From contig VGZG01000023.1 in assembly GCA_016872675.1 (NCBI GenBank), positions 1 to 46,055 of the forward strand: 46,055 nucleotides of DNA, given 5' to 3'. This document shows positions 1,510-14,927 of the stretch, piece by piece. The stretch is from Planctomycetota bacterium. GTDB taxonomy: Bacteria; Planctomycetota; UBA1135; UBA2386. How positions within the stretch are numbered: position 1 is the first letter of the stretch; each line of letters starts with the position of its first letter. The notes beneath the pieces were generated by a model that saw only the letters and a list, made by a program, of their open reading frames with translations, was not told the origin of the DNA and ran no database searches. The position numbers were made by a program, and so were the translations under genes.

Positions 1510-1775
1510 TGCAGCTGCTGCTTGAACGCTTCTTCCAGCTGCCGCCGCAGGTCCATCGCGGTGGTGAAGCTCGCGTCGGCGTCGGCGACTGCGTCGCGCA
1601 GGTCATCGGCGGTCTGCACCTGCTCGGGCGAGCGCGCGGGCGCGAGGTGGCGGCCGAGCTTGTCGAGCAGCGCCTCGAAGCCCGGGGCGACCGGCGCCTG
1701 CGGCGCGCGTTCGCCGTCGAGCGGCGTTGGCGCGGCGAGCGCGCCGAGTTGGTTGGTCGGCCCCACGGCGCTCAC
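1506..1775 (-). CDS. small FliE-like protein (possible MS-ring/rod junction protein)
   Basis: An 89-residue protein starting at GTG, which overlaps the flgL stop by 4 nt (GTGA), and ending in a 4-nt overlap with the acetyltransferase gene. The N-terminal ~30 residues are Pro/Ala-rich. The C-terminal ~45 residues form a predicted amphipathic helix, DADASFTTAMDLRRQLEEAF, which lines up with the FliE C-terminal signature (A-x-x-SF-x-x-x-V-x-VR-x-KL-x-EAY). An FEALL motif also matches the conserved FxxLL of FliE. FliE joins the MS ring to the proximal rod and is about 100 aa, usually encoded next to flgB-flgC; here it follows flgL. It could instead be an unrelated short coiled protein. The pattern is convincing by eye but the protein is short. 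Confidence 0.5.
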   Translation of the reverse strand: MSAVGPTNQLGALAAPTPLDGERAPQAPVAPGFEALLDKLGRHLAPARSPEQVQTADDLRDAVADADASFTTAMDLRRQLEEAFKQQLQ

Positions 1776-3199
1776 CGCAGGAAGCCCATCAGGCTGTTCT
1801 GAATGACCCTGGCGCTGATCTGCAGGGCAGCCTGGTAGCTCATGTCCTGCTGCTGCATCTCCAGGATCGCCGACGTGATGTCGGTGTCCTCGAGCCGCGA
1901 CAGCGACTCCTGGCGCGAGGCCTGCAGGTCTTCGACGCGGTTCTTCAGCGCGTCCATGCTGGAGCTGCGGAAGCCGATCTCGCGCAGGCCGTTGAGCACC
2001 GCCTCGTGCGCGCCGTCGACGGCGTCGAGCATGCGCGACACGCGCGCCTGCACCTCGCCGTCGGCGAGGCCTTCGTCGTTGCGCAGCAGATCGCGCAGCG
2101 TCGTCAGCGTGGTGAATGCGTCGAACGTGCCGACGTGCTCGATTTCCTCGACACCGGTGCGGGTGATGCCCCGCGCGTCGAAGTAGGTCGTCGAGTTATC
2201 GGTTGCGCTGCGCACGGCGACCGCGCTGAGCGAAAAATCGGTGACGGTGGTGAACGACACGCCGCCGTCGGTCGACAGCCGCGCCGCCGATGTGAACGTG
2301 CCGGTCAGCGTCGCCGGCACACCGGTGACGGTCAGCGAGATCGTGCGGTCGTCGGCGGTCGTGAACGTGCCGTTGGTGACCGGGATGCCGACCGCCGCGC
2401 CGCCGCCGATGCTGAGCGTGCCGGCGACCGGGTCGAAGGCGTAGCTGAGTTGGCCGAGCGCGGTGGTGGCGCCGTTGCCGGCGCTGACCGTCGCGGGGCG
2501 GTCGTTGGTCAGGCCGCCCCAGGTGACTTCGAGGCGCTGGCGGCCGACCGCGGTCGAGCCGCCGGTGGTCCCGAGCACGCCGGTCGCGGTGGTGCCGGGC
2601 ATCGGCGTGATCAACATGCTGCCGCGATTGCGCGCCAGGAAGACGCGGTCGCCGGCGACGTTGAGTTCGGTCTGCACGCCGGGCGCCACGTTGATCGACA
2701 GCGTCTCGCGATTGCCGCGGTAGCGCACCGAGGTGCGGCCGCCGACGGTGACGCTCTCAAATGGCGGTTGGTCGTCGTCGGTGCCGCCGAAGAGGTAGCG
2801 GCCGCCACGCTTGCTGTTGGCGATGCCGACGAGCTGGCCGAGCAGCTGGTCGACTTCGGCCGCGATGCTGGCGCGGTCGCCCTGGCTCAGCGTGCCGTTG
2901 CTGGCCTGGGTCGTCAGTTCGCGCACGCGCTGGAACAGCGTGCTGGCATCCTCGAGCGCCGAGGCGCCGGTGTTCAGCGTCTCGCGCGCGAGCGAGACGT
3001 TTTCGCTCATTCGCCGCAGGTCGGCGATGTCGCTGCGCAGCGGCGCCATCTGCAGCGTCGCGGCGGGATCGTCCGACGGGCGCAGAACGCGCCGGCCGGT
3101 GGCGATCTGCTGCTGCAGGACCGAACTGCGCGCGAGCCCGCGCTGCACGTCGGCGAGCGCGCGGCTGAACATCATGCCTTGCGTGATGCGGACACTCAT
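1772..3199 (-). CDS. flgL: flagellar hook-associated protein 3 (FlgL)
   Basis: FlgL is the second hook-filament junction protein, exported by the flagellar type III system and capped by filament. The N-terminus (MSVRITQGMMFSRALADVQR, then LQQQIATGRRVLRPSDDP) is the flagellin/FlgL D0-D1 helix, and RGGRYLFGGTDDDQPPF is the FlgL-typical Y-x-F-x-G motif ending D1. The C-terminal ~90 residues restore the D0/D1 coiled helices (RLEDTDITSAILEMQQQDMS, family pattern). At 475 residues it exceeds the usual ~320; the extra length is in the central beta-rich, Thr/Gly-rich outer domain. The Shine-Dalgarno AGGTGA overlaps the flgK stop, supporting this ATG. It lies 4 bp after flgK and overlaps the FliE-like gene by 4 nt. 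Confidence 0.95.
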   Translation of the reverse strand: MSVRITQGMMFSRALADVQRGLARSSVLQQQIATGRRVLRPSDDPAATLQMAPLRSDIADLRRMSENVSLARETLNTGASALEDASTLFQRVRELTTQASNGTLSQGDRASIAAEVDQLLGQLVGIANSKRGGRYLFGGTDDDQPPFESVTVGGRTSVRYRGNRETLSINVAPGVQTELNVAGDRVFLARNRGSMLITPMPGTTATGVLGTTGGSTAVGRQRLEVTWGGLTNDRPATVSAGNGATTALGQLSYAFDPVAGTLSIGGGAAVGIPVTNGTFTTADDRTISLTVTGVPATLTGTFTSAARLSTDGGVSFTTVTDFSLSAVAVRSATDNSTTYFDARGITRTGVEEIEHVGTFDAFTTLTTLRDLLRNDEGLADGEVQARVSRMLDAVDGAHEAVLNGLREIGFRSSSMDALKNRVEDLQASRQESLSRLEDTDITSAILEMQQQDMSYQAALQISARVIQNSLMGFLR

Positions 3200-3203
3200 G
3201 AGG

Positions 3204-3209
3204 TCACCT
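3204..3209 (-). promoter_or_regulatory. Shine-Dalgarno of flgL made from the flgK Arg-stop codons
   Basis: On the minus strand, flgK ends GGC-AGG-TGA, then CCTC and the flgL ATG. The hexamer AGGTGA, formed by the last sense codon and the stop, sits at ideal distance (AGG to ATG is 7 nt) and is the only ribosome-binding motif there. This implies termination-reinitiation coupling of flgK and flgL. Confidence 0.7.
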
Positions 3210-5570
3210 GCCGAGATTGATGAGGGTGTCGGTCATCTCCTGCGCCACGGCGAGGAAGCGGGCCGCCGCCTCGTAGGACTGCTGGAAACGCATCATGTCG
3301 ACCATCTCCTCGTCGATGTTGACGCCGGAGATCGACTCGCGTTCGGCGTTCAGCTGCGCCATCAGCGCCTCCTGCGACGCCAGCGCCGTGCCGGCGGCGG
3401 CGACGTCGAAGCCGACTTCGCCGACGAGGTCGGACCAGAAGTCTTCGATCGAGGTGCCGTCGAGCCCGTCGAGGTCGACGTCGCGCAGCGTCGCCAAGCG
3501 GGCGAGGTTGCCGGCGTCGCCGGCGGCGGCGCTGATGCCAGCCGCGACGCGGTCAGCGTTGGCGACGAGCTCCGGATTGACGGCGATGTCAGCGGCTGAC
3601 GTGCCGAGGAAGAATGAGTTGAGGCCGAGCGCGACCAGCACGTCGGTCGTGTCGCTGTCCGCCAGCGCGTCGACGGCGAAGACCTGGCCCTGGCTGCCGC
3701 TGATCTGGCCGGCGCCGAACGCCACCGTGATGCCATCCGCGACGGCGATCGATTCGCCCGGCTCGTAGCCGGCGCCGACGTCGATCGTGGTGACGAGGTT
3801 GCCTTCCTTGTCGAGCACGCGCATGCGCAGGTCCTGCGTCATGCCGATGGTGCCGTTGCCCTCGGGCACGAAGGTGAACTGCTGGTTTGCGGCGCCGGTG
3901 TAGGCGCCGCCGATGGTCACCTCGAGCGCCGCGTCGCGGCCGATCGCCGTCGTCGTCGGCAGACCGAGCGCGGCGAGCAGATCGCCTGGGCCAGTGCCAC
4001 TGGCCAGCGACAGCGTCGCGACCGATCCGTTCTGCGAGCCCTGCAGCACGAGCCGGCCGCCGACCACGAGGGCCGTGCCGTTGGGATCGAGCTGGCGGTT
4101 GATGGCAGTCGCCAGTTCGTCGGCGGTGGCGTTCTCGACGTCCTGGAAGGCCGTCGCCGCGATCATCACGGTCGTGCTGGTCGTGCCTGCCGCCGAACCG
4201 TTGTTGACGACGAGGCTGAGCGGGAACGTCTGATCCGACAGGTCGTACGGGCCCGGTTGGCTGCTGCCGAGCACCGGCTGCATGCCGCCGAAGGTGCCGC
4301 GTGTGTCCGGCGCGGTGTCGAGCCGCGGCGAGAAGTCGAAGCCATAGCGATCGGCGGCGTTGAGGCGCAGCCGGCCGGTCGGATCGACGGTCGCCGTTAG
4401 GTTGGGGATGTCATTGAGCGCGGTCGCGAGGTCGTCGAGCGACATCGTCGCCGGATCGATCGCGATGCGCGTGCGCTCTATCGCGCCCGTCGCAATGTCA
4501 GTGACGTTGACGTAGAGCTCGCCCTTGCTGATGTCGAATGGCAGGCCCGCCTGCGACAGCAGTTCGTCGCCACGGTTGCCGTCGCCGTCGTTGTCCTGCG
4601 CGCCGTAAGCGCTGGTCAGCGAGCGAAGCGGACCCGACGCCGGCATGCCGGTCGTGTGGGCGCGGTTCCACTCGAGGATCGTGTTGCGCGCCAGCTGGTC
4701 GATGCGGGACTGCAGTCCGGGCACGCCGGCCTTCTCTTGCGCCAGCAGCGCACCGATGCGGCCACCCTTGAGCGACGCGCTGGCGTCGGCCTTGCCGACC
4801 AGCAGCTTGGTCGAGTCGGCGGCGTCCTTGCCGACGGCGAGCGCAGTCGTGCGGTCGCCGGCGACGAGCTGATGGCCGCCGACCAGCAGGTCGAGGCTGC
4901 CGTTGGCGCGCTCCAGGGCGCGCACGTCGATCAGCTTGCCGAGTTCCTTCACCTGCTGCGCGCGTGTGTCGCGCAGGTCGTTGGCGCTGGCGCCGGTCGC
5001 CTCGGCCGCGGTGATCTGCTGGTTGAGCGACGCGATCACGGCGGCGCGGTCGTTGACCTGGCGCACGAGCCCGCGGACTTCGTCGAACGTGGTGCCCGAG
5101 AGGTCGCTGAGGCGCGAGGCCATCATGCGGAACTCCTGGCTCAGCGCGCCGCCGGCCTGCACGAGGCCGCCGCGCAGCGCGCGGTCGCCCGGATCGGTGC
5201 GCAACTGGTCGAGCGCGCCGAACAGATCAGTCAACGACGCGCTCAAACCGCCCTCGGGATCGCCGAGGATGCCTTCGATCTCGCGCATGCGGGACAGGTC
5301 GACCTGAGCGGCGCCGACCATGCCCATTTGCAGCTGGATCCGGCGCTCGATGCCTTCGTCGACGAGGCGGGTGATGCTGCGGATGTCGACGCCGGCGCCG
5401 ATCTGCATGGTGCCGCCGACGCCGAATGGGTAGGCGGCGGCTAGTTCGACGCGCTGGCGCGTGTAGCCCGCCGTGTTGGCGTTGGCGACGTTGTTACCGG
5501 CCGTCTGCATGCCGTAGCGCGCCGCTTGCAGCGCGCGGAGGCCTGCGTCGAGTCCAAAGCCGAAGGTCAT
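3204..5570 (-). CDS. flgK: flagellar hook-associated protein 1 (FlgK)
   Basis: FlgK is the first hook-filament junction protein, secreted through the flagellar export gate. The N-terminus (MTFGFGLDAGLRALQAARYG followed by NNVANANTAGYTRQRV) is the flagellar rod/hook N-domain with the conserved NN-x-ANA-x-T-x-GYTRQ motif. The C-terminus has GVNIDEEMVDMMRFQQSYEA, the conserved FlgK end (NxDEEmxxMxxfQQaYxAaAr). Its 788 residues are well above the typical 450-630; the expansion is a beta-rich Thr/Gly region between about residues 330 and 680. AAGGAG lies 7 nt upstream of the ATG. It follows the chaperone gene flgN by 36 bp, matching FlgN's role as FlgK/FlgL chaperone. Confidence 0.96.
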   Translation of the reverse strand: MTFGFGLDAGLRALQAARYGMQTAGNNVANANTAGYTRQRVELAAAYPFGVGGTMQIGAGVDIRSITRLVDEGIERRIQLQMGMVGAAQVDLSRMREIEGILGDPEGGLSASLTDLFGALDQLRTDPGDRALRGGLVQAGGALSQEFRMMASRLSDLSGTTFDEVRGLVRQVNDRAAVIASLNQQITAAEATGASANDLRDTRAQQVKELGKLIDVRALERANGSLDLLVGGHQLVAGDRTTALAVGKDAADSTKLLVGKADASASLKGGRIGALLAQEKAGVPGLQSRIDQLARNTILEWNRAHTTGMPASGPLRSLTSAYGAQDNDGDGNRGDELLSQAGLPFDISKGELYVNVTDIATGAIERTRIAIDPATMSLDDLATALNDIPNLTATVDPTGRLRLNAADRYGFDFSPRLDTAPDTRGTFGGMQPVLGSSQPGPYDLSDQTFPLSLVVNNGSAAGTTSTTVMIAATAFQDVENATADELATAINRQLDPNGTALVVGGRLVLQGSQNGSVATLSLASGTGPGDLLAALGLPTTTAIGRDAALEVTIGGAYTGAANQQFTFVPEGNGTIGMTQDLRMRVLDKEGNLVTTIDVGAGYEPGESIAVADGITVAFGAGQISGSQGQVFAVDALADSDTTDVLVALGLNSFFLGTSAADIAVNPELVANADRVAAGISAAAGDAGNLARLATLRDVDLDGLDGTSIEDFWSDLVGEVGFDVAAAGTALASQEALMAQLNAERESISGVNIDEEMVDMMRFQQSYEAAARFLAVAQEMTDTLINLGR

Positions 5571-5606
5571 GGGGGTTCTCCTTTGCCTATCCTTTCGCCA
5601 ACCAAC

Positions 5607-6122
5607 TCACGCCTTGCCGTCGAGCAGCGCGCCAGCGGCGTTGCCGGCGTGCAGCACGCGCGCCGACCGGTCGTATCCCGGGACGGTCGCGCGACCGGCC
5701 GGGGCCGGCACGCGCAGCGCGTCTTGCGCATATCGGACGAGACGCTGTCCGAGCGTTACTTCCGTTCGCACCGACCTTGCGAGTTGCGTGACCCGGTCCG
5801 CCGCGTCGCGCAGGCTGCATGACTCGGCGGCAGGCAGGGCGCCCGCGATCTTGGTGACGTTGACGTGCAGCGAGCCGGGGGCGTTGCCGAGCGGCGCTGG
5901 CAGGGCCTGGCGGATGCGGGCGACCAACTCGTCGCGGCTGGCCTCCTCGCACACCAGTTCCTGGGCGAGCTGCTCCAACTCTGGCTCCGGCGCGAGCTTG
6001 CTGGCGCGCGCCGAGACCCACGACTGACGGCGGGCCTGCAGGCCGGCCAGCAGCTTCTCGAGTCGCTCGGCGGAGCGCGTGAACGACTGCTGCAGAAGTC
6101 GACAGTCCTCAGAGAACGACAT
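5607..6122 (-). CDS. flgN: FlgN-like export chaperone for FlgK/FlgL
   Basis: A 171-residue, mostly helical, charged cytosolic protein. Residues ~1-75 resemble the FlgN family: a long helix with LEKLLAGLQARRQSWVSARA, then EQLAQELVCEEASRDELVAR, close to the pattern where residues after R-x-x-L scan E-x-x-R pairs. FlgN binds FlgK and FlgL and delivers them to the export apparatus. The ATG at 6122 is chosen because a strong AAGGGAGG lies 6 nt upstream inside flgJ; longer in-frame extensions would be read out of frame through flgJ. It overlaps the end of flgJ by 14 nt and sits directly before flgK, the expected client. FlgN proteins diverge strongly, so part of the call rests on position. Confidence 0.7.
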   Translation of the reverse strand: MSFSEDCRLLQQSFTRSAERLEKLLAGLQARRQSWVSARASKLAPEPELEQLAQELVCEEASRDELVARIRQALPAPLGNAPGSLHVNVTKIAGALPAAESCSLRDAADRVTQLARSVRTEVTLGQRLVRYAQDALRVPAPAGRATVPGYDRSARVLHAGNAAGALLDGKA

Positions 6123-6504
6123 TGCAGCCTCCCTTCGCGTCAGTGGCGCGCAGGCTCGCGGTCTCGGCGGCCTTGCGGGCGGCTTGCGCCTTGATGTCGA
6201 GGTCCTTGGGGATCTGGCCGTGCCGCTCGAGGTCGGCCAGCAGTTTGTCCTTGATGCCGATCTTGCTCGTGCGCGAGATCCGCTCGGACAGGTTCTGGTC
6301 GAACCAGTCCGCGAACGTGTCGGCGCCCGGGCCGTCGCCGAACATGCCGCCGCCATCGCCACCGATCGAGGCGCTCGAGCGCAGCGTGCTGACCATCGAA
6401 CGGATGAAGATCTGCTCGAACTGCGCCGCCGTCTTCTCGGCCCGCGCGCGCTCCGGATCGGCCTGCGGCCCATTCGTCATGCGGTTGATGCGCGCGACGT
6501 CCAT
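6109..6504 (-). CDS. flgJ: rod-binding protein FlgJ, N-domain only
   Basis: A 131-residue protein equal to the rod-binding N-terminal half of FlgJ. It shows AAQFEQIFIRSMVSTLRSSA (family A-x-x-FE-x-x-F-x-x-x-M-x-x-x-R), then FADWFDQNLSERIS and the conserved IGIKDKLLADL. In enteric bacteria FlgJ has a second, muramidase domain that opens peptidoglycan for the rod; it is absent here, as in many other phyla, so a separate lytic enzyme must do that job. The start ATG overlaps the flgI stop by 1 nt (TGATG), with GGAGGTG upstream inside flgI. The last residues are encoded within the start of flgN. Confidence 0.88.
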   Translation of the reverse strand: MDVARINRMTNGPQADPERARAEKTAAQFEQIFIRSMVSTLRSSASIGGDGGGMFGDGPGADTFADWFDQNLSERISRTSKIGIKDKLLADLERHGQIPKDLDIKAQAARKAAETASLRATDAKGGCNVVL

Positions 6505-7745
6505 CAGCGCACCTCCAGCGTGGCGTGCAGGAAGCCGCCTTGCTCGAGCGCCTGGAACACCTGGATCAGCTGCGCTGGCGTCAGGCCGAGCGTCTTCAGG
6601 TTGGTCAGCAAGTCGGAGACGGAGGCGCCGCCGCCCATCTTCTTGAGCTCGGTGTGCGTCTGCGCCGCCTCGATGCGGGTGCGGGCGACCTTCTCGGTCT
6701 GGCCATGGCCGAACGGCAGCGGCTGCGAGACCTGCTCCTCCTCGACGATGGTGATCGTCAGATCGGACAGGCCGACGACGCACGGGCTGATCAGCACGCC
6801 TTCGCCGGCGAGCACGGTGCCGCTGGCCTGGTCGATCATGACCTTGGCCGGGTTCTCAACCTGCACGCGCATGGCGCCGACGAGGTTGAGCAGGCGGATG
6901 GCGTTCTCGTTGGTGCGGTCGGCCTCCGGCAGATCGATGCGGACGAGGCTCGGGTCGATGGCCGAGACCTTGGCCGACGTGCCCTCCAGCGCCGTGGTCA
7001 CGCCGTTGGCGATCGACATGGCGTTGAACGGGCTCGGGTTGAGCACCTGCAGCTCGAGCGCGCCGGACTCGCTGAAGAACTTGGTGTTCTCTTCGCGGAT
7101 CACGACGCCGCCGTTGGTGACCCAGCCGGTGAGGCTAGGGTTGTTCTTGAGCGACGCGGCGTTGCCGTCGGCGGAGAAGCCGGGGATGACCAGGCCGCCC
7201 TGCGCGACGACGTAGGCCTGGCCGTCGACGCCCTTGAGCTCGGCGCGCAGCAGTTCGCCGCCGCGCAACGACGAGCAATCGCTGATCGCCTCGATCTTGA
7301 CGTCGAGGATCTGGCCCTGCTTGGCGAACGGCGGCAGCGAACAGCTGATGCTGACGAGCGCCGTCGAGCCGCCGACGACGTCGCTGATCGTCAGGTTGAG
7401 TCCGAGTTGGCGGATGACGTTGAGGATCGCCTGGCGCGTGCCGCGGTCGCTCGAGCCGGTCTTGGCGAGGCCGGTGACTACGCCGATGCCAACCAGCTGG
7501 TGCGGCATGCTGTTGTGCAGGCGCGTGACGCTGCGGATGCGCGGCGTCAGGATGGTCTCGCCTTCGCCGCCCTGGCGAACGGCGATCTCCTGGCGCTGGA
7601 TCGGCGGGACGCTGACTTCGCCCTGCTGGGCGGCGTCGGGGCCTTCCGCGGCGCCGCGCGTGGACGTGGCGCTGGCGGCGTTGGCTGCCGGCTGCTGCGC
7701 CAGCAGCGCCGAGGCGAACGCGAGGACGATGAGGACGGTGCGCAT
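6504..7745 (-). CDS. flgI: flagellar P-ring protein FlgI
   Basis: FlgI forms the periplasmic P ring around the rod. The 413-residue protein begins with a Sec signal peptide (MRTVLIVLAFASALLAQQ). The conserved core follows: QLVGIGVVTGLAKTGSSDRG near residue 75, then KQGQILDVKIEAISDCSSLR with GGELL, matching the FlgI family (G-x-GLVVGLxGTGD, G-x-x-D-V-x-v-ssigDAxSLxGG). The length is slightly above the usual ~365 because of a ~45-residue linker after the signal peptide. The order flgA-flgH-flgI-flgJ groups ring chaperone, L ring, P ring and rod cap. It starts 8 bp after flgH with no good Shine-Dalgarno, so translation may be coupled. Confidence 0.96.
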   Translation of the reverse strand: MRTVLIVLAFASALLAQQPAANAASATSTRGAAEGPDAAQQGEVSVPPIQRQEIAVRQGGEGETILTPRIRSVTRLHNSMPHQLVGIGVVTGLAKTGSSDRGTRQAILNVIRQLGLNLTISDVVGGSTALVSISCSLPPFAKQGQILDVKIEAISDCSSLRGGELLRAELKGVDGQAYVVAQGGLVIPGFSADGNAASLKNNPSLTGWVTNGGVVIREENTKFFSESGALELQVLNPSPFNAMSIANGVTTALEGTSAKVSAIDPSLVRIDLPEADRTNENAIRLLNLVGAMRVQVENPAKVMIDQASGTVLAGEGVLISPCVVGLSDLTITIVEEEQVSQPLPFGHGQTEKVARTRIEAAQTHTELKKMGGGASVSDLLTNLKTLGLTPAQLIQVFQALEQGGFLHATLEVR

Positions 7746-7753
7746 GGGATGTC

Positions 7754-8377
7754 TCAGAAGGGCCAGCAGGCCCAGACCAGGGTGTCGAAGAACTGGCCGA
7801 CGGGGCCGCGCGAGACCTGCCGCGTGCCGCCGCCCTCGCCGAGGATGGCGACGCGCGCGTCCGCGACCTCGGCGCTGTTGACCGTGTTGTTCGGCGTCAC
7901 GTCGAGGGCGCGCACAAGGCCGCTGATGCGGAGCGTGCGGGTTTCGTCGTTGACGGTGACGGTGCGCGCGCCGGCGATCACGAGATTGCCGTTGGGCTGG
8001 ACGTCGATGACGACGACCGCGACGCTGGCGCGGACGGTGCTGCCCGTGTTCTGCATCGACTCGCCGAGGAAGTCGCTCTCCTTGCGGATGTCGATGCGCG
8101 GCAGGTCGCTCGACTTGAAGGTGTCCTCGCTGAGCGAGTAGGACTCCAGGCGCGCGGCGAGCGACGTGTCGTTGCGGCGCTCGACCTTGTCCTGGTTGCT
8201 GACGCTGTGCTGTTCCCGGACAATGACCGTCAAGATGTCGCCGACGTTGCGGGCGCGGAGGTCGGCGACGACGCCGAGGTTGGCGCCGGCGCGCACGTAC
8301 GGGTTCTGGGCCGCGGCGGGCGCGGCCAGGACGGCGAGCAGGCAGAGGCTGCGGATGGCGTTCATGGTCGTGTTCAT
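7754..8377 (-). CDS. flgH: flagellar L-ring protein FlgH
   Basis: FlgH builds the outer-membrane L ring. The 207-residue protein shows the family core: VGDILTVIVREQHSVSNQDK (family GD-x-l-T-V-x-i-x-E), VVVIDVQPNGNLVIAGAR and NDETRTLRISGLVR with a following D. The N-terminus is a Sec signal (LCLLAVLAAPAAAQ) ending in an AxA-Q site. The only Cys in it is in the hydrophobic core rather than after an L-x-x lipobox, whereas FlgH of Proteobacteria is a lipoprotein. The ATG overlaps the flgA stop by 4 nt; a second in-frame ATG four codons later is an alternative start that keeps the signal peptide. Confidence 0.94.
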   Translation of the reverse strand: MNTTMNAIRSLCLLAVLAAPAAAQNPYVRAGANLGVVADLRARNVGDILTVIVREQHSVSNQDKVERRNDTSLAARLESYSLSEDTFKSSDLPRIDIRKESDFLGESMQNTGSTVRASVAVVVIDVQPNGNLVIAGARTVTVNDETRTLRISGLVRALDVTPNNTVNSAEVADARVAILGEGGGTRQVSRGPVGQFFDTLVWACWPF

Positions 8378-9339
8378 TGCGGCACCACCACGAGGCCCTG
8401 CCCCTGGACGATGCCGGTGAGGGTCGAGCGGGACTGGACGTTGGTCAGCGTGATGCGGCCGCCGAGCGGCGCGTCGTGGTTGGCGAGCGCCTTGGCGGTC
8501 ACCTTGACGCGGCCGCGGGTCAGCACGACCGTCACGAGGTCGCCGCGCTGGATCACCGCCGGCTGCGCGCAGTCGCCGATGGTGACGCGCTGGTTGGGCT
8601 GCAGGTTGCGCGCCGCGACCAGGCCTTCGACGAGGTCCATGCGGTCGAGGTAGAGCGCGGTCTGCTGGTCCATCGGCTCGCGCACGAGCGCGAGCGTCTC
8701 CGGGCCGAGCGGCGTGCCAGCGCGCACTGCGCCGAGCGTCTTCAGCGCCTGCTGGAAGCGCTGCAGCTTGAAGGTCACCGGGATCTTGCGGAACGACGTC
8801 CCGTCGACGAGCACGTCGACCTCGACGACCGCGGTGTTGATGCCGGTGCGGGCGCCGCGCAGGCGGGCGCTGAGTTCCTGGCTCTGGCGGCCGGGCGGTG
8901 CGTGCAGGATGCGGGGCTTGTTCGGCGCGTCGAACTCGACGTCACCGCCCTCGACGCCGAGCTGCGCCTGCAGCGTCGTCGTCGCGGCGTCCATCAGTTC
9001 GTCGGCGCTGATCTCGACGTAGACGGCCTGCACGATGGTCTCGTCGGCGCCCTCGACCTTGACGGTCGCGAGGTCGACGCCGGCGGCGGCCAGCGACTGC
9101 ACGACGTCGGCACGCGACACCGTGCGGGTGAAGCCCTGGTTGGGCGCGGGGCCGAAGCGGATGCGGGCGATGGCGGCGCCGGCGGCGTCGCCGGGCAGTT
9201 CGCACAGTTCGCCGAGATTGACGTCGAGGCCGCGGACGGCGGTGGTGGGGCGCAGCTTGACCGGGGTCACGGCCTTGCCCTTCTCGTCGCCGCCGCCGAT
9301 CGCGGCGGCGAACATGCACAGGAACGCGAGCAGCTTCAT
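8374..9339 (-). CDS. flgA: flagellar P-ring assembly chaperone FlgA
   Basis: FlgA is the periplasmic chaperone needed for P-ring polymerisation. The 321-residue protein has an N-terminal signal (MKLLAFLCMFAAAIGG). The C-terminal ~120 residues hold the SAF/FlgA domain: LKTLGAVRAGTPLGPETLAL, LVEGLVAARNLQPNQRVTIG and QRGDLVTVVLTRGRVKVTAK, then GGRITLTNVQSRSTLTGIV, all family landmarks. The upstream half carries two less conserved domains, making it longer than E. coli FlgA (~220 aa). A 61-bp spacer, the largest within flgG-flgI, separates it from flgG and carries a strong AGGAGAGAGG just before the ATG. I saw no promoter in that spacer. Confidence 0.93.
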   Translation of the reverse strand: MKLLAFLCMFAAAIGGGDEKGKAVTPVKLRPTTAVRGLDVNLGELCELPGDAAGAAIARIRFGPAPNQGFTRTVSRADVVQSLAAAGVDLATVKVEGADETIVQAVYVEISADELMDAATTTLQAQLGVEGGDVEFDAPNKPRILHAPPGRQSQELSARLRGARTGINTAVVEVDVLVDGTSFRKIPVTFKLQRFQQALKTLGAVRAGTPLGPETLALVREPMDQQTALYLDRMDLVEGLVAARNLQPNQRVTIGDCAQPAVIQRGDLVTVVLTRGRVKVTAKALANHDAPLGGRITLTNVQSRSTLTGIVQGQGLVVVPQ

Positions 9340-9400
9340 GGTCCTGTTCCTCTCTCCTTCGATCCTTGGGGGGTGGTTCGTGGCGTGGTGGCGCTGTCGG

Positions 9401-10195
9401 TCAGCGACCGATGTTGGTCGCCGTCGACAGCATCTGGTCGCTGGCCTGGATCGCGCGGCTGTTCACCTCGTACGCGCGCTGCGCGACGATCAGGTTGACC
9501 AGCTCGTTGACGATCTGGACGTTGCTGCGCTCGAGGAAACCCGAGCGCAGCGAGCCGAGGCCGATCTGGCCCGGATTGCCGGTGATCGGCTGACCAGACG
9601 CCTCGGTCGGGCGCAGCACGTTGCTGCCGACTGCGAGCATGCCGCTCGGGTTGACGAAGCGGTGCAGCTGCAGCTGGCCGAGCTGCGTCGTCGTCTCCGG
9701 GCTGCCGGCCGTCCGCACGTTGACGCGGCCCTCGGGGTCGACCGAGACCTCCATCACGTCTTGTGGCAGCGTGATCTCGGGCATCAGCACGTTGCCGTTG
9801 CCGGTGACCAGCTTGCCGACGGCGTTGACCTGGAAGTTGCCGTCGCGCGTGTACGCCAACGAGCCGTCCGGCATCAGCACCTGGAAGAAGCCGTCGCCGT
9901 CGATCGCCACGTCGAGCGGGCGGTCAGTGCCTTCGAGCGTGCCGGTCGAGTAGATCTTGGTCGTGCCGTTGAGGCGCGTGCCGGAGCCGATCTGCGTGCC
10001 GATCGGCACGGCGTCGGCGCCGGTGCCGCGGGCGAGGCCGGGCGACTGCGGCGTGACGTACAGCAGGTCCTCGAACGAGGCCTGCGACTTCTTGAACCCG
10101 GTCGTGTTCACGTTCGCGATGTTGTTCGCGATCATGTCGACCATGGTCTGTTGGGCGCGCATGCCCGTGGCGGTCGTGTAGAGGCTCTTTAGCAT
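9401..10195 (-). CDS. flgG: distal rod protein FlgG
   Basis: FlgG forms the distal rod. At 264 residues it has the standard length. The N-terminus MLKSLYTTATGMRAQQTMVD with NNIANVNTTGFKKSQASFED is the FlgG rod signature. A central DRPLDVAIDGDGFFQV and LAYTRDGNFQVNAVGKLV is the family's D1 motif. The C-terminus SNVQIVNELVNLIVAQRAYE with NSRAIQASDQMLSTATNI is diagnostic. It starts 5 bp after flgF; the Shine-Dalgarno is AGG from the flgF C-terminal Arg codon. Together with FlgF it bridges the proximal rod (encoded elsewhere) to the hook. Confidence 0.97.
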   Translation of the reverse strand: MLKSLYTTATGMRAQQTMVDMIANNIANVNTTGFKKSQASFEDLLYVTPQSPGLARGTGADAVPIGTQIGSGTRLNGTTKIYSTGTLEGTDRPLDVAIDGDGFFQVLMPDGSLAYTRDGNFQVNAVGKLVTGNGNVLMPEITLPQDVMEVSVDPEGRVNVRTAGSPETTTQLGQLQLHRFVNPSGMLAVGSNVLRPTEASGQPITGNPGQIGLGSLRSGFLERSNVQIVNELVNLIVAQRAYEVNSRAIQASDQMLSTATNIGR

Positions 10196-10200
10196 GTTCG

Positions 10201-10206
10201 TTACCT
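10201..10206 (-). promoter_or_regulatory. Shine-Dalgarno of flgG made from the flgF Arg-stop codons
   Basis: On the minus strand flgF ends CTT-AGG-TAA, then CGAAC and the flgG ATG. The AGG(TAA) element is the only purine-rich motif at a workable distance (8 nt from AGG to ATG). Confidence 0.55.
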
Positions 10207-10938
10207 AAGGATGTTGGTGATCAGGTTGTCCTGGATGCGACCGATGCCCGTCAGGGCCTTCTGTGTCGCGGCGAAGCTGCGCTCGACGGTGATCATCGCG
10301 ACGAGCTCTTGCAGGCTGTCGACGTTGCTGCCCTCGAGATAACCCTGCTGGACGCCGTCGGCGGCCTGCGTGGTCGGTTGGTTCTTGGTGTCGCGGTAGA
10401 GGCCCTTGCCGACCGGCGCGAGCGCCTCCTGGTCGGGGAACGAAACCACCGCGAGCGGGCCCCAGATCTGGCCGTTGACCGGATTGCTGATGGTCCCGTT
10501 CGGCGAGATGCGGATCTCCGACGGCACGTCCTCGGCGTTGCCGAGCGAGATCGCCTGGCCGTTGGCGTCAAGCACGTTGAAGCCGTCGCGCGTCTGCACG
10601 AAGCCGTTGTTGCCGATGCGCAGCTCGCCGTTGCGCGTGTACATCGGTTTGCCGCCGGCGCCTTCGACGCGCAGCCACTGGCCCTGGGCCAGCAACACGT
10701 CCATGAGATTGCCGGTCTCGCGCACGACGCCGGCTTGGCGGTCGGTGCGCTCCGTGTACGAGACGGCGTCGAGCTCGCGGTCGAGCAGGGAGTCGAAGCC
10801 CTGCTGCGGCGCGGCGACGCCGATGCGGCGTTTGAAGCTTGCGGTGTCGACGTTCGCCAGGTTGTTGGCGATCGACGCTTGCTTCTCGGCGAGGAACGAC
10901 AGTCCCCGGACCAGCGCGGTTTCTCCGTAGTTGCCCAT
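10201..10938 (-). CDS. flgF: proximal/distal rod protein FlgF
   Basis: FlgF is a flagellar rod protein related to FlgG and FlgE. The 245-residue product has an N-terminal rod domain (GLSFLAEKQASIANNLANVD then TASFKRRIG) with the NNLANV-x-T-x-x-FK motif. It has a central YTRNGELRIGNNGFVQTRDG motif and a C-terminal domain (GSNVDSLQELVAMITVERSF). An in-frame GTG at 10944 would give two more residues, but GAGGTGA is placed 5 nt before the ATG at 10938, so that ATG is chosen. It begins 2 bp after flgE. The call of FlgF over a second FlgG rests on order (E-F-G) and a weaker C-terminal motif. Confidence 0.92.
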   Translation of the reverse strand: MGNYGETALVRGLSFLAEKQASIANNLANVDTASFKRRIGVAAPQQGFDSLLDRELDAVSYTERTDRQAGVVRETGNLMDVLLAQGQWLRVEGAGGKPMYTRNGELRIGNNGFVQTRDGFNVLDANGQAISLGNAEDVPSEIRISPNGTISNPVNGQIWGPLAVVSFPDQEALAPVGKGLYRDTKNQPTTQAADGVQQGYLEGSNVDSLQELVAMITVERSFAATQKALTGIGRIQDNLITNILR

Positions 10939-10940
10939 GA

Positions 10941-10947
10941 TCACCTC
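10941..10947 (-). promoter_or_regulatory. Shine-Dalgarno of flgF made from the flgE Arg-stop codons
   Basis: On the minus strand flgE ends GTG-AGG-TGA, then TC and the flgF ATG. GAGGTGA is a near-perfect anti-Shine-Dalgarno complement and decides the flgF start at 10938 over the GTG at 10944. Confidence 0.75.
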
Positions 10948-12908
10948 ACGATGTTCATGAGTTCGGCCAGGATCTCGTCAGTCGTCGTGATGACGCGCGA
11001 GTTGGCCTGGAAGCCGCGCTGGGCCTCGATCAGGTTGACGAACTCGCGCGAGATGTCGACGTTGCTGTTCTCGAGCGTGCCGGCGCGGACCATGCCGGCG
11101 CCGCCGGCGTTGGCGACCGTCGTGATCGCGTCGTCCGAGTTGGGCGAAGCGGTGAACATCGTGTCGCCGACGCGCTGCAGGCCGCCTTCGTTGCTGAACA
11201 TGGTGATACGCAGACGCGCGATCTCCTCGTTCTGGCCGTTGCTGTAGAAGCCAACGAGGCGCCCCTCAGCGTCGAAGCCGACGTTGAGCAGCGTGCCCGA
11301 CTGGTAGCCGTCCTGGTCGACGGCCGCGATGGTGGGCGCGCTGCCGAGTTGCGCGACGCCGTCGAAGGTGCCCGAGGTGCCGAGGTCGATCTGCACGTCC
11401 TGGCGCTCGGTGATGCCGGCCCACTGGAACTGCAGCGAGTTGGTGCCGCCGCCGATCACGTTGAACGAGCCGTTGTCGTTGAAGCGGATCTGCCCGATCG
11501 AGTCCTGGGTGATCTGGCTGTTCGGTTCCTCGGTGGTCGCGACCATGTCCCACACCTGCGGGTTGGCCGCCGAGCGCGTGAACGTCAGCGTCACCGGGTG
11601 CGTGCGGCCCATCGTGTCGACGACGTCGATCGAGGTGGTCGCCGTGTCCGGGCCAGTGCCCTGCTGCGAGACGACGAAGTTGGACCAGTTGGAGCTGCCG
11701 GTATTGCCGCTGATATCGCCGATGAACAAGCTGAGTTCGGCCTCGCCCCTCTCGTCGGCGCTGAGGCGGATCTTGCCGTCGGCGGTCAGCGTGGCGGTCG
11801 CCTGGTCGGGGTCGATCGTCGCGTTGATGAAGGCGAGTAGGTCATCGAGCGTGGTGCCGTCGTTGCCGACGCCGAAGACGAACGTGTCGGAGAACGCCGT
11901 GCCGTCTGGGTTGGTGCCGCGCACGGAGATCTGATCGCCCGACACATAGCCGGTGATGCGCGAGGTCATGGAACCGATTTCGGTCATGCCGACGGCCGTC
12001 GTCTCCGTGCCGCTGACGAGTTGAGCGTTGAGACCCATCGCCTGCAGCAGGCCGTTGGCTTGCGGGCCGTCGTCGAACTTCAGCGACGCCGCGGCGCCCA
12101 GGCGCACGGTGTCGAATTGGATCGTGCCGGCGCCGTCGTTGGCGATGACTTGCAGGCCGGCGACCGAGAAGGCCGCGGCGACCGTCGAGGCCGGCACCGG
12201 GCCGGCGCCGAACGTCGCCGACGGGAAGGTCACCGTCTGCTGCGCGCCGCCGTTGACCGACACGAGCACGCTCTTGCCGGCGAACGCGGTGAGGTCGAAT
12301 TGCGGCGCCGACGTGCCCGCGGCGGTCGCCGTCTTGGTGGCGGCATTGCCGGCCTTCAGGCCGTTGGCGGCCTCGATGACCTCGGCCAGCGGGCCGCTGA
12401 CGGTCGCCGGCAGGTTGCCCTGGAACTGGATGCGCGACGTCTGCTGTGCTGGCAGCGTGCCGCTCGCCGGCACCGAGATCGCAGCGCCCGAGCTGTTCAG
12501 GACGCGCATGCCGTTGCGCAGGTCGACGAGGTTGCGGTTGCCGTCGATGCCAAAGCTGCCGACGCGGCTGTAGTAGGTCTGGTTGCCGTCGGTGAGCGTG
12601 AAGAAGCCGCGGCCCTGCAGCGCCAGGTCGAGCGATCGCCCCGTGTCCTGCAGCGTGCCCTGGTTGGTGTTCATGTCGATCGAGGCCATCAACGTGCCCG
12701 TGCCGATCTGCATCGGGTTCTGGCCGCCGTACGCGCCGTTGGGGGCGCTGCCGGAGCGGACGTTGAAGCTCAGGATGTCGCTGAAGGTCGCGCGCGAGCC
12801 GCGGAAGCCCGGTGTGCTGACGTTGGCGAGGTTGTTGCCGATGACATCGATGTAGGTCTGGTGGGCCCGAAGACCCGACAGGCCGGTGTAGAGCGAAGTG
12901 CTGACCAT
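10941..12908 (-). CDS. flgE: flagellar hook protein FlgE
   Basis: FlgE polymerises into the hook. The N-terminus MVSTSLYTGLSGLRAHQTYI with GNNLANVSTPGFRGSRATF is the classical rod/hook domain. The C-terminus GTLENSNVDISREFVNLIEA with QRGFQANSRVITTTDEIL is diagnostic of FlgE. It has 655 residues, against ~400 in E. coli. The additional ~250 residues are Thr/Ser/Gly-rich, beta-type surface domain sequence between about residues 150 and 420. Helicobacter and Campylobacter hooks are also enlarged, so size alone is not unique. AGGAG lies 8 nt upstream of the ATG. It sits between flgD (hook cap) and flgF. Confidence 0.96.
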   Translation of the reverse strand: MVSTSLYTGLSGLRAHQTYIDVIGNNLANVSTPGFRGSRATFSDILSFNVRSGSAPNGAYGGQNPMQIGTGTLMASIDMNTNQGTLQDTGRSLDLALQGRGFFTLTDGNQTYYSRVGSFGIDGNRNLVDLRNGMRVLNSSGAAISVPASGTLPAQQTSRIQFQGNLPATVSGPLAEVIEAANGLKAGNAATKTATAAGTSAPQFDLTAFAGKSVLVSVNGGAQQTVTFPSATFGAGPVPASTVAAAFSVAGLQVIANDGAGTIQFDTVRLGAAASLKFDDGPQANGLLQAMGLNAQLVSGTETTAVGMTEIGSMTSRITGYVSGDQISVRGTNPDGTAFSDTFVFGVGNDGTTLDDLLAFINATIDPDQATATLTADGKIRLSADERGEAELSLFIGDISGNTGSSNWSNFVVSQQGTGPDTATTSIDVVDTMGRTHPVTLTFTRSAANPQVWDMVATTEEPNSQITQDSIGQIRFNDNGSFNVIGGGTNSLQFQWAGITERQDVQIDLGTSGTFDGVAQLGSAPTIAAVDQDGYQSGTLLNVGFDAEGRLVGFYSNGQNEEIARLRITMFSNEGGLQRVGDTMFTASPNSDDAITTVANAGGAGMVRAGTLENSNVDISREFVNLIEAQRGFQANSRVITTTDEILAELMNIVR

Positions 12909-12949
12909 GATTCGTGCTCCTATTTGTTGCCGCTGGTTGCGGGTCCGGG

Positions 12950-13582
12950 TCAGTTGCCAGTGAAGGCAGCGGCGGCGTTCTGCACGGCGTCGGCAGCCTC
13001 GGCGATGGTGGTGATGGCGTTGGCGCCCGTGCCGGTCGGACCCGTGCCGCCGGTGGTCGTCGAGCCGGTGTTGGCTGCGTTCGACGCGCTGTTGTTCGAC
13101 GCGCTATTCGACGCGTTCGTGTTGCTTGTGGTGGATGCCGGCGTTCCGACGTCGCGGATGCCGAGCACTGCGCGCAGGTCGATCTCCGCGCCGCCCTCGA
13201 GCCTCAGCTTGACATCGCCGGTCTCGGCGACGAACACCGACTCGACCTTGCCGCGAGCCTCCGTGCCACCCTCGCCGACGTAGCTGACCTCCTTGCCGAG
13301 CAGCGCGCTGCCCTGACTGAGGCCCTGCATGCGCGCGAGCACGCCCTGGTAGTCGAGCAGCTTGAGCAGGTTGCTGTTGAGGTCGCGCTGCTCCTGCATC
13401 GTGGTGTAGCTCGCCATCTGGTTCATGAAGCTTTCGTTGTCGACGGGCTCCAGCGGCGTCTGGTTGCGCAGCTGGGTCGTCAGCAGCGTCAGGAACTGGT
13501 TGTCGCCCATGGTCGCGGCGCGCGTGCCCATGACGGCGTTGCCGTTGCTGGTCGAGAGAGAGTTGATGCCGGTTGTGGTCAT
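12950..13582 (-). CDS. flgD: hook-capping scaffold protein FlgD
   Basis: FlgD caps the growing hook and is lost when hook assembly ends. The 210-residue product has the conserved N-terminal export/cap region: DNQFLTLLTTQLRNQTPLEP with a following MASYTTMQEQRDLN. It then has LLGKEVSYVGEGGTEARGKV, matching the FlgD beta-domain (lGk-x-v-x). The C-terminal ~65 residues are unusual: an Asn/Ser/Thr/Gly-rich low-complexity segment and a short helix replace the usual FlgD tandem Fn3/tudor repeats. The ATG at 13582 is chosen because AAGGAAA lies 8 nt upstream, starting in the fliK stop codon; the much longer open frame upstream overlaps fliK and is not coding. Confidence 0.93.
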   Translation of the reverse strand: MTTTGINSLSTSNGNAVMGTRAATMGDNQFLTLLTTQLRNQTPLEPVDNESFMNQMASYTTMQEQRDLNSNLLKLLDYQGVLARMQGLSQGSALLGKEVSYVGEGGTEARGKVESVFVAETGDVKLRLEGGAEIDLRAVLGIRDVGTPASTTSNTNASNSASNNSASNAANTGSTTTGGTGPTGTGANAITTIAEAADAVQNAAAAFTGN

Positions 13583-13593
13583 GTCGGTTTCCT

Positions 13594-14652
13594 TCAGGCC
13601 CAGAAGTCGAGGCCGTTGGCGCGGACGAAGCTGCGCCGGCGGCCGGTGGTCGGTTGGATCTCCTGCTCCGCGGCGGCGGCGCCGCCCTGCGGCTGCGCGT
13701 CGCGCTCGCGCTGCTCGCGCTCGAACTCGCCGCGCGTCTGCACTTCCGCGCCAGCGACCTCGAGGCCGGCCTGCTGCAGGGAGTGCTTGAGCTCGTCGAG
13801 GTGGCGCTGCAGCAGGTGCGCCATGTCCTGGCGCTCGGCAGCGATCGTGAGGTTGAGGCGGTTGGACTGGTCCATCACCAGCCGCAGGTCGAGCTCGCCG
13901 AGGTCGGCGGGCTGCAGCTTGAGCCGCATCTCGCCGCCTTCGCCGGTCAGCTTGACCAGGATCTGCTTGAACACCGAGTCGCGCGCCTGCTCGATCAGCT
14001 CGGCGCTCGCGGCGTTGTTCGTGCGCAGCGAACCGGCGGCCGCAGGCGTCGCCAGCGGCGTGTTCGGCCGCGCGAGCGCGGCGGCGGGACCGGGGGCCGC
14101 GGCGGCGACGCCGCGCGCGGCGCCGATCGCGCCGACGTTGTTCTCCGTGCCGGCAGCGACGGGCGCCGTGGCCGCAGCCTGAGCGGCCATCGGATTGAGC
14201 GTGGCGGCCAGCAGCGGCTCGGCCGAAGGCTTGCCCGCTGGGCGGGTCGGCTCGCCGGTCGTCGAGTTGCCGGCGTCGCCGCGCGGGGCTGTCGGACGGT
14301 CCGCCAGGCTCGCATCGGCGACATTGCCATCGTCCTGCGCGTGCGTCGCGGTGGCTTGCCCACTGGCTTCGAACGCCTGCGCGTCGGTCGGCAGCGTGGC
14401 GAGTTCGCCTCGCTCCTGGCGCGATAGCTCGTCGGCCGCCGGCGCCTGGATCTCGTCGGCCTCGACCTCGGCGTCGACGTCGTCGACGCGGCGGTCCTCG
14501 ACGTGGCGGGCGTCGACGCGTTGGCGCGCCGGCTCGCCGTCGATCGCTGCGTCGAGCACGGACGCGAATGCGTCGCCCGCGTCGGCCGGGTTGGCCGCCT
14601 GCGGGAACGCCATCGGGTCCGCTTCGATCCGTCCGTGGATGCTGGTCAACAT
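13594..14652 (-). CDS. fliK: hook-length control protein FliK
   Basis: FliK measures hook length and switches export specificity. The 352-residue protein is disordered and Ala/Pro-rich over its first ~220 residues, as in the family. It ends in a Flg_hook-type C-domain: GGEMRLKLQPADLGELDLRL, then LNLTIAAERQDMAHLLQRHL and ELKHSLQQAGLEVAGAEVQT, the L-x-P-x-x-LG-x-l-x-v switch motif. The start at 14652 has AGAGGA 7 nt upstream and a sigma-54 promoter placed immediately before it; a longer open frame to 14925 would run across the promoter and is rejected. It is the first gene of the operon. Confidence 0.9.
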   Translation of the reverse strand: MLTSIHGRIEADPMAFPQAANPADAGDAFASVLDAAIDGEPARQRVDARHVEDRRVDDVDAEVEADEIQAPAADELSRQERGELATLPTDAQAFEASGQATATHAQDDGNVADASLADRPTAPRGDAGNSTTGEPTRPAGKPSAEPLLAATLNPMAAQAAATAPVAAGTENNVGAIGAARGVAAAAPGPAAALARPNTPLATPAAAGSLRTNNAASAELIEQARDSVFKQILVKLTGEGGEMRLKLQPADLGELDLRLVMDQSNRLNLTIAAERQDMAHLLQRHLDELKHSLQQAGLEVAGAEVQTRGEFEREQRERDAQPQGGAAAAEQEIQPTTGRRRSFVRANGLDFWA

Positions 14653-14681
14653 GACTTCGATCCTCTGCCCTGCCCGACGGG

Positions 14682-14697
14682 AGCACCGCGCGTGCCA
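14682..14697 (-). promoter_or_regulatory. sigma-54 (RpoN) promoter of the fliK-flgL operon
   Basis: Reading the minus strand from 14697 to 14682 gives TGGCACG-CGCG-GTGCT. The RpoN consensus is TGGCACG-N4-TTGCW, so 11 of 12 fixed positions match and the GG (-24)/GC (-12) spacing is exact. The predicted start is near 14671, leaving a ~19-nt leader that contains the fliK Shine-Dalgarno AGAGGA. Sigma-54 control of hook and rod operons is established in several phyla. Confidence 0.75.
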
Positions 14698-14764
14698 TCC
14701 GTCCGTCTTCCGGTTCCGCCTGGGGGGCGGCGCCGTCTCGGCCGGGGGCACGCAGGAGCTGGTC

Positions 14765-14818
14765 GGCAGGACCTGCCGGCGGGCTATCGGCAGGAAGTGC
14801 CACCCGGCATGAGTTGCC
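14765..14818. promoter_or_regulatory. three GGCA-N5-TGCC dyads, candidate activator sites
   Basis: Three dyads with identical half-sites and spacer length lie at 14765-14777, 14789-14801 and 14806-14818. The first is perfect (GGCAGG-A-CCTGCC). Their centres are about 100, 124 and 141 bp upstream of the predicted sigma-54 start at 14671, the usual distance of enhancer sites for RpoN activators (FleQ/FlrC/FlgR type). The binding protein is not in this window. Confidence 0.5.
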
Positions 14819-14831
14819 ACTGCCGGTGGCA
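14815..14831. promoter_or_regulatory. inverted repeat TGCCAC-N5-GTGGCA
   Basis: A perfect 6-bp inverted repeat with a 5-bp spacer, partly overlapping the third GGCA-N5-TGCC dyad. It lies about 42 bp upstream of the sigma-28 element of the flgM-like gene, so it could be an operator for either direction or a small hairpin. Confidence 0.35.
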
Positions 14832-14872
14832 GCGGGATTTCGTCGAATTGGCCGGATTTTTCGCCCTGGCTC

Positions 14873-14899
14873 TCAAGCGGAGACGGGATCTGCCGATGA
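14873..14899 (+). promoter_or_regulatory. sigma-28 (FliA-type) promoter of the flgM-like gene
   Basis: TCAA at 14873-14876, then exactly 15 bp, then GCCGATGA at 14892-14899. The sigma-28 consensus is TAAA-N15-GCCGATAA, so spacing is exact and only one base in each element differs. The predicted start is about 14906, 22 nt before the ATG, which is preceded by AGAGG. Class-3 control of flgM is the known arrangement in model flagellates. Confidence 0.65.
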
Positions 14900-14927
14900 A
14901 CGAGGCACCAACCCGCAGAGGTCACCG

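Follow-up and report, generated by a model that had tools for sequence, protein, structure and literature searches.

Late flagellar genes are governed by sigma-28 and FlgM in the systems built around FlrBC in Vibrio, FleSR in Pseudomonas and FlgSR in Campylobacter. In these polar flagellates, a kinase and an NtrC-type regulator act together with sigma-54 on the rod and hook genes and provide a rod-hook checkpoint (PMC7064773). Caulobacter crescentus also uses sigma-54 promoters for hook and rod genes, under FlbD and its ftr elements. The FlbD site is given as CCCGGCAxxxxxTGCCGGG in work on D. vulgaris (PMC3333781), and ftr elements serve divergent units such as flaN-flbG according to a title cited in PMC3096577. 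Caulobacter does without FliA (PMC3930126), and no cognate kinase is paired with its FlbD (PMC7064773). The Desulfovibrio FlbD homologue DVU1063 is a flagellar sigma-54 regulator with GGCA/TGCC dyads; its motif is given as GGCA-N4-TGCC, and the available portion of the report describes no tandem of three (PMC3333781). For Planctomycetia, sigma-54 enrichment at motility genes has been computed (PMC12316311). Beyond this, our literature search, which had partial coverage, returned no description of planctomycete flagellar promoters; the initial annotation had held that few were described.

We detected a comparable arrangement in an uncultured planctomycete, in the 275-letter gap (14653-14927) between fliK and an flgM-like gene of the window (the whole 46,055-nucleotide stretch analysed; Table 1). 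Like Caulobacter, it combines the dyad core GGCA-N5-TGCC with a predicted sigma-54 promoter for hook and rod genes and a divergent gene pair. Unlike Caulobacter, the genome encodes FliA and the flgM-like protein, and the candidate regulator, encoded on contig C44 (L149:14510-15898), has an adjacent histidine kinase and a canonical receiver motif. Kinase, NtrC-type regulator and sigma-54 are shared with the FlrBC, FleSR and FlgSR systems, but the dyad matches FlbD, and we identified no master regulator of the FleQ/FlrA kind.

With a probability of roughly 80%, we read the gap as a divergent flagellar control region, in which the C44 regulator and sigma-54 would serve the fliK operon and FliA would serve flgM. 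The reading draws on the sites, their conservation and spacing, gene content and co-occurrence; from these we infer dyad binding by the regulator, promoter activity, the checkpoint signal and the action of FlgM. The kinase would activate the FlrC/FlbD-type regulator, which would bind the ftr-like dyads, all three of them (centres near -100, -124 and -141), and reach the promoter by DNA looping, so that the sigma-54 promoter would drive the rod and hook operon fliK-flgD-E-F-G-A-H-I-J-N-K-L. On the other side FliA would transcribe flgM, whose product would hold FliA until the hook is finished, leaving motAB and probably fliC to be expressed last.

Table 1. Predicted elements and genes of the control region (coordinates in the window) and the related dyads of sister families
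Feature	Position	Strand	Remarks
Rest of putative operon	1772..13582	-	flgD, flgE, flgF-like, flgG, flgA, flgH, flgI, flgJ-like, flgN-like, flgK, flgL/flagellin-like
fliK, hook-length control	13594..14652	-	first operon gene; PF02120 E 6e-16
Predicted sigma-54 (RpoN) promoter	14682..14697	-	TGGCACG-CGCG-GTGCT; fliK operon; kept in relatives
Dyad 1, ftr-like putative activator site	14765..14777		GGCAGGACCTGCC; core as in the Caulobacter FlbD site (PMC3333781)
Dyad 2	14789..14801		GGCAGGAAGTGCC; 23-25 bp from dyad 1 in all family members
Dyad 3	14806..14818		GGCATGAGTTGCC; 17-19 bp from dyad 2
Predicted sigma-28 (FliA) promoter	14873..14899	+	TCAA-N15-GCCGATGA; would serve the flgM-like gene
flgM-like gene, 102 aa	14928..15236	+	orthologues adjoin fliK in 20 relatives; FlgM Pfam matches in 5 of the 20
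GGAA-N5-TTCC loci of sister families	about 1580-2120, window orientation		L057, L059, L063, L064, L066, L067, L198; upstream of fliK

Operon genes were named by Pfam (flgD, E, F/G, A, H, I, K and the flagellin-like gene), except for the small flgJ-like and flgN-like genes, which were named from position and size alone. The sigma-54-like site before fliK lies exactly where the initial annotation had placed it. It has the required GG-N10-GC spacing, with GG at -24 and GC at -12, and agrees with TGGCACG-N4-TTGCA in 10 of 12 letters, or in 11 when either A or T is accepted at the last position. The main deviation lies in the -12 element, where the first T of TTGC is replaced by G. TGGCACG-N4-KTGCW has this site as its sole match in the 3.58 Mb genome, and 0.04 matches per window are expected of the form with GTGCW. 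Judged from the motif, transcription of the fliK operon would start near 14671, with a leader of about 20 nt. The dyad centres given above are counted from this start and fall in the range of about -80 to -150 where upstream activator sites are sought.

The three dyads were likewise confirmed at the positions first reported. Their GGCA-N5-TGCC core is exact, and the outer bases often read CGG...CCG, as in ftr sites of the CCCGGCA-N5-TGCCGGG type. Dinucleotide shuffling of the gap (100,000 shuffles) gave a mean of 0.011 dyads, at least two in a fraction of 6e-5 and three in none. A genome-wide search for the dyad, which the initial annotation had suggested, had a divided outcome: closely spaced pairs were found in this gap only, and single dyads showed no enrichment (108, where the reversed control gave 167). 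Even with one mismatch allowed, none was found upstream of fliA, motA or the fliP cluster of this genome, and fliC is preceded by a single one-mismatch match. Tandem dyads outside the family were set aside as chance in five f8 genomes (one match each, with the reversed control similar at 3) and in G052, where the match falls inside a coding sequence.

The initial annotation had named the dyads and promoter elements from one sequence, and both are conserved in the family. Using flgD as anchor, we collected upstream DNA from 36 genomes of uncultured Planctomycetota and compared 21 same-family gaps, the window's included, from end to end. All 21 contain a sigma-54-like site [TC]GGCAY-N-GTGCW and a T[CA]AA-N15-[GT]CCGA site, and, when one mismatch per dyad is tolerated, all have three dyads except for one gap with two; dyad 3 shows one-base decay in several distant members and is missing in one. 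Two further genomes (G017 and G023) have the same sigma-54 and dyad layout, G017 together with TAAA-N15-GCCGATAA. With these and G021, described below, a sigma-54 site accompanied by two or three dyads is present in 24 of 24 assessable same-family genomes; three other members, whose sequence stops at a contig end, fall outside this count.

The spacing between dyads is rigid in family members (Table 1). Activator sites span -76 to -174 across relatives. Dyad 1 stands at a variable distance from the sigma-54 site, between 50 and 104, and this distance clusters at 50, ~71, ~82 and ~92, in steps of about one helical turn (Rayleigh p about 0.007 for 11 unique values, uncorrected for kinship). Such clustering is as expected of a protein-bound enhancer acting on one helix face.

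G021 has fliK and flgD on separate contigs (L156:4144-5313 and L049). Both genes keep a TGGCA...GTGCT sigma-54 site together with a pair of dyads spaced by 18 bp; neither is accompanied by flgM. Two genomes of genus g18 have an extra dyad pair before another gene, with TGGCACC-N4-TTGCT or TGGCAGC-N4-TTGCT. This gene (L154:4599-5248, L155:499-1132), of unassigned function, adjoins a helicase gene. The split in G021 and the extra pairs in g18 indicate that the dyads go with sigma-54 promoters, which makes control of flgM less plausible as their purpose.

Searching the genome for the regulators that the initial annotation had called for, rpoN, fliA and flagellar activator genes, we found all of them: two rpoN genes, 12 strong sigma-54 activator domains and two FliA/WhiG-family genes above the cut-off, one of them in an export-gene cluster with fliP. 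Order-wide, most flgD-bearing genomes have two rpoN genes, and outside the window's family a single copy prevails among genomes that lack flgD; a second copy as a flagella-only feature was rejected, the trend not being strict. On contig C49, a sigma-54-like palindromic TGGCACATCATGTGCT (L151:9895-9910) lies just before the gene preceding fliP, with no dyads nearby.

On contig C44, motAB follow a sigma-28 site; the contig also encodes two kinase and activator pairs and the flagellin gene fliC, which has a weaker CTCAAG...GCCG element upstream. The first activator is the NtrC-type response regulator introduced above. Its DNA-binding tail scored 54 bits against the NCBIfam FlbD profile, compared with at most 31 for nine other activator tails (10 of the 12 were compared, L073 and L075 being left out). 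Against the FlbD equivalog NF050807 the regulator reached 370 bits, far below the curated cut-off of 750, which makes it FlbD/FlrC-like and not FlbD sensu stricto. Orthologues (E at most 1e-16) are present in 27 of 27 family genomes with flgD and in 2 of 7 without (hypergeometric p about 8e-5). Most retain the receiver acceptor-aspartate motif, and in nearly all with enough upstream sequence a kinase G-box precedes the receiver motif by ~300 bp. With its FlbD-like tail, kinase partner and co-occurrence with flagella, the protein has the features of an FlbD/FlrC-type flagellar regulator. The initial expectation of a FleQ/FlrC-like activator at the dyads fits in its FlrC half, with an FlrC/FlbD-type candidate and the FlbD ftr core; no FleQ assignment was obtained. 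The two genomes with an orthologue in which no flgD was found (G025 and G032) may have a gap in the assembly or may have lost their flagella recently. Plasmid relatives were considered for supplying a named FlbD and discarded: the neighbourhoods of two unnamed top matches were not flagellar, and FleR of P. aeruginosa was found.

The sigma-28-like promoter also occupies exactly the position first assigned to it and is kept in all 21 comparable gaps. No match to TCAA-N15-GCCGATGA is expected per window (0), and the looser TMAA-N15-GCCGATNA occurs three times genome-wide, once in the gap and once directly upstream of motAB. A site resembling TAAA-N15-GCCGATAA and a fliA gene in the same genome are both consistent with a sigma-28 promoter. 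The gene behind it is called flgM-like, an identity taken from its orthologues and not from the window's own protein, which gave no direct match to PF04316 (none above the Pfam cut-off) or to NCBIfam FlgM. PF04316 matches among the aligned orthologues have E up to 1, the best being 5e-5. A profile search against PDB chains returned no FlgM match. In a low-confidence model of the protein, the N-terminus is disordered and the C-terminal part forms three helices, as expected of FlgM.

The initial annotation had suggested that the activator might control both directions. The dyads would then be shared, the regulator activating the sigma-54 operon and also activating or repressing flgM. Caulobacter FlbD does both through ftr sites (PMC3930126), and the distance from dyad 3 to the sigma-28 -35 element, 60-66 bp in most gaps, varies less in these gaps than that from the dyads to the sigma-54 site. 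However, it is ~127 bp in two relatives and 52 or 77 in others, the dyads of G021 stay with fliK and flgD and not with flgM, and no dyad accompanies the sigma-28-like site of motAB even when one mismatch is allowed (fliC has its single one-mismatch match). We consider shared control unlikely. The dyads might instead be bound by the second activator of contig C44 (L150:4048-5469), which has its own kinase and adjoins the flagellin gene fliC; its tail matches FlbD weakly (22 vs 54 bits), which makes it an improbable candidate beside the first regulator.

It is also conceivable that 14682-14697 is a palindromic operator, GCAC-N5-GTGC, and no promoter, the operon being read from elsewhere. The variant G makes the site near-palindromic, and on C49 a perfect GCACATCATGTGC palindrome stands ahead of the gene that comes before fliP. 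We regard this as highly improbable: the site is asymmetric in its conserved TGGCAC, present on one side, and canonical TTGC versions (TGGCACGGCCATTGCT) occur before fliK in more distant families. Sigma-54 activation of the fliK operon by the C44 regulator, with FliA acting on flgM, motAB and probably fliC, remains our preferred reading.

Sister families have a related dyad, GGAA-N5-TTCC, which was found by inspection and counted on the same loci: eight occurrences in 13 loci (74.7 kb), all upstream of fliK, compared with one each for the N3, N4, N6 and N7 spacer controls. Several of these loci also have a sigma-54 site before fliK. The recognition helix reads V-T/S-A/P-RTL in the best-matching sister-family regulators, taken as putative orthologues, vs IGVRTL in the window's family. 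Activator specificity may have changed from GGCA to GGAA between neighbouring families of the same order, in step with the helix, a suggestion to which we give slightly less than even odds.

What sets this predicted divergent sigma-54/sigma-28 flagellar region apart is mainly its phylum and the pairing of a kinase-linked regulator with the FlbD code. It presents the textbook layout of a flagellar assembly checkpoint, here in Planctomycetota, with cis sites and a candidate regulator that are named and directly testable. As far as the sequences tell, the ftr code of FlbD would be in use outside Proteobacteria and Desulfovibrio, and if the switch from GGCA to GGAA is true, these families would offer a natural series for the joint change of an enhancer-binding protein and its sites.
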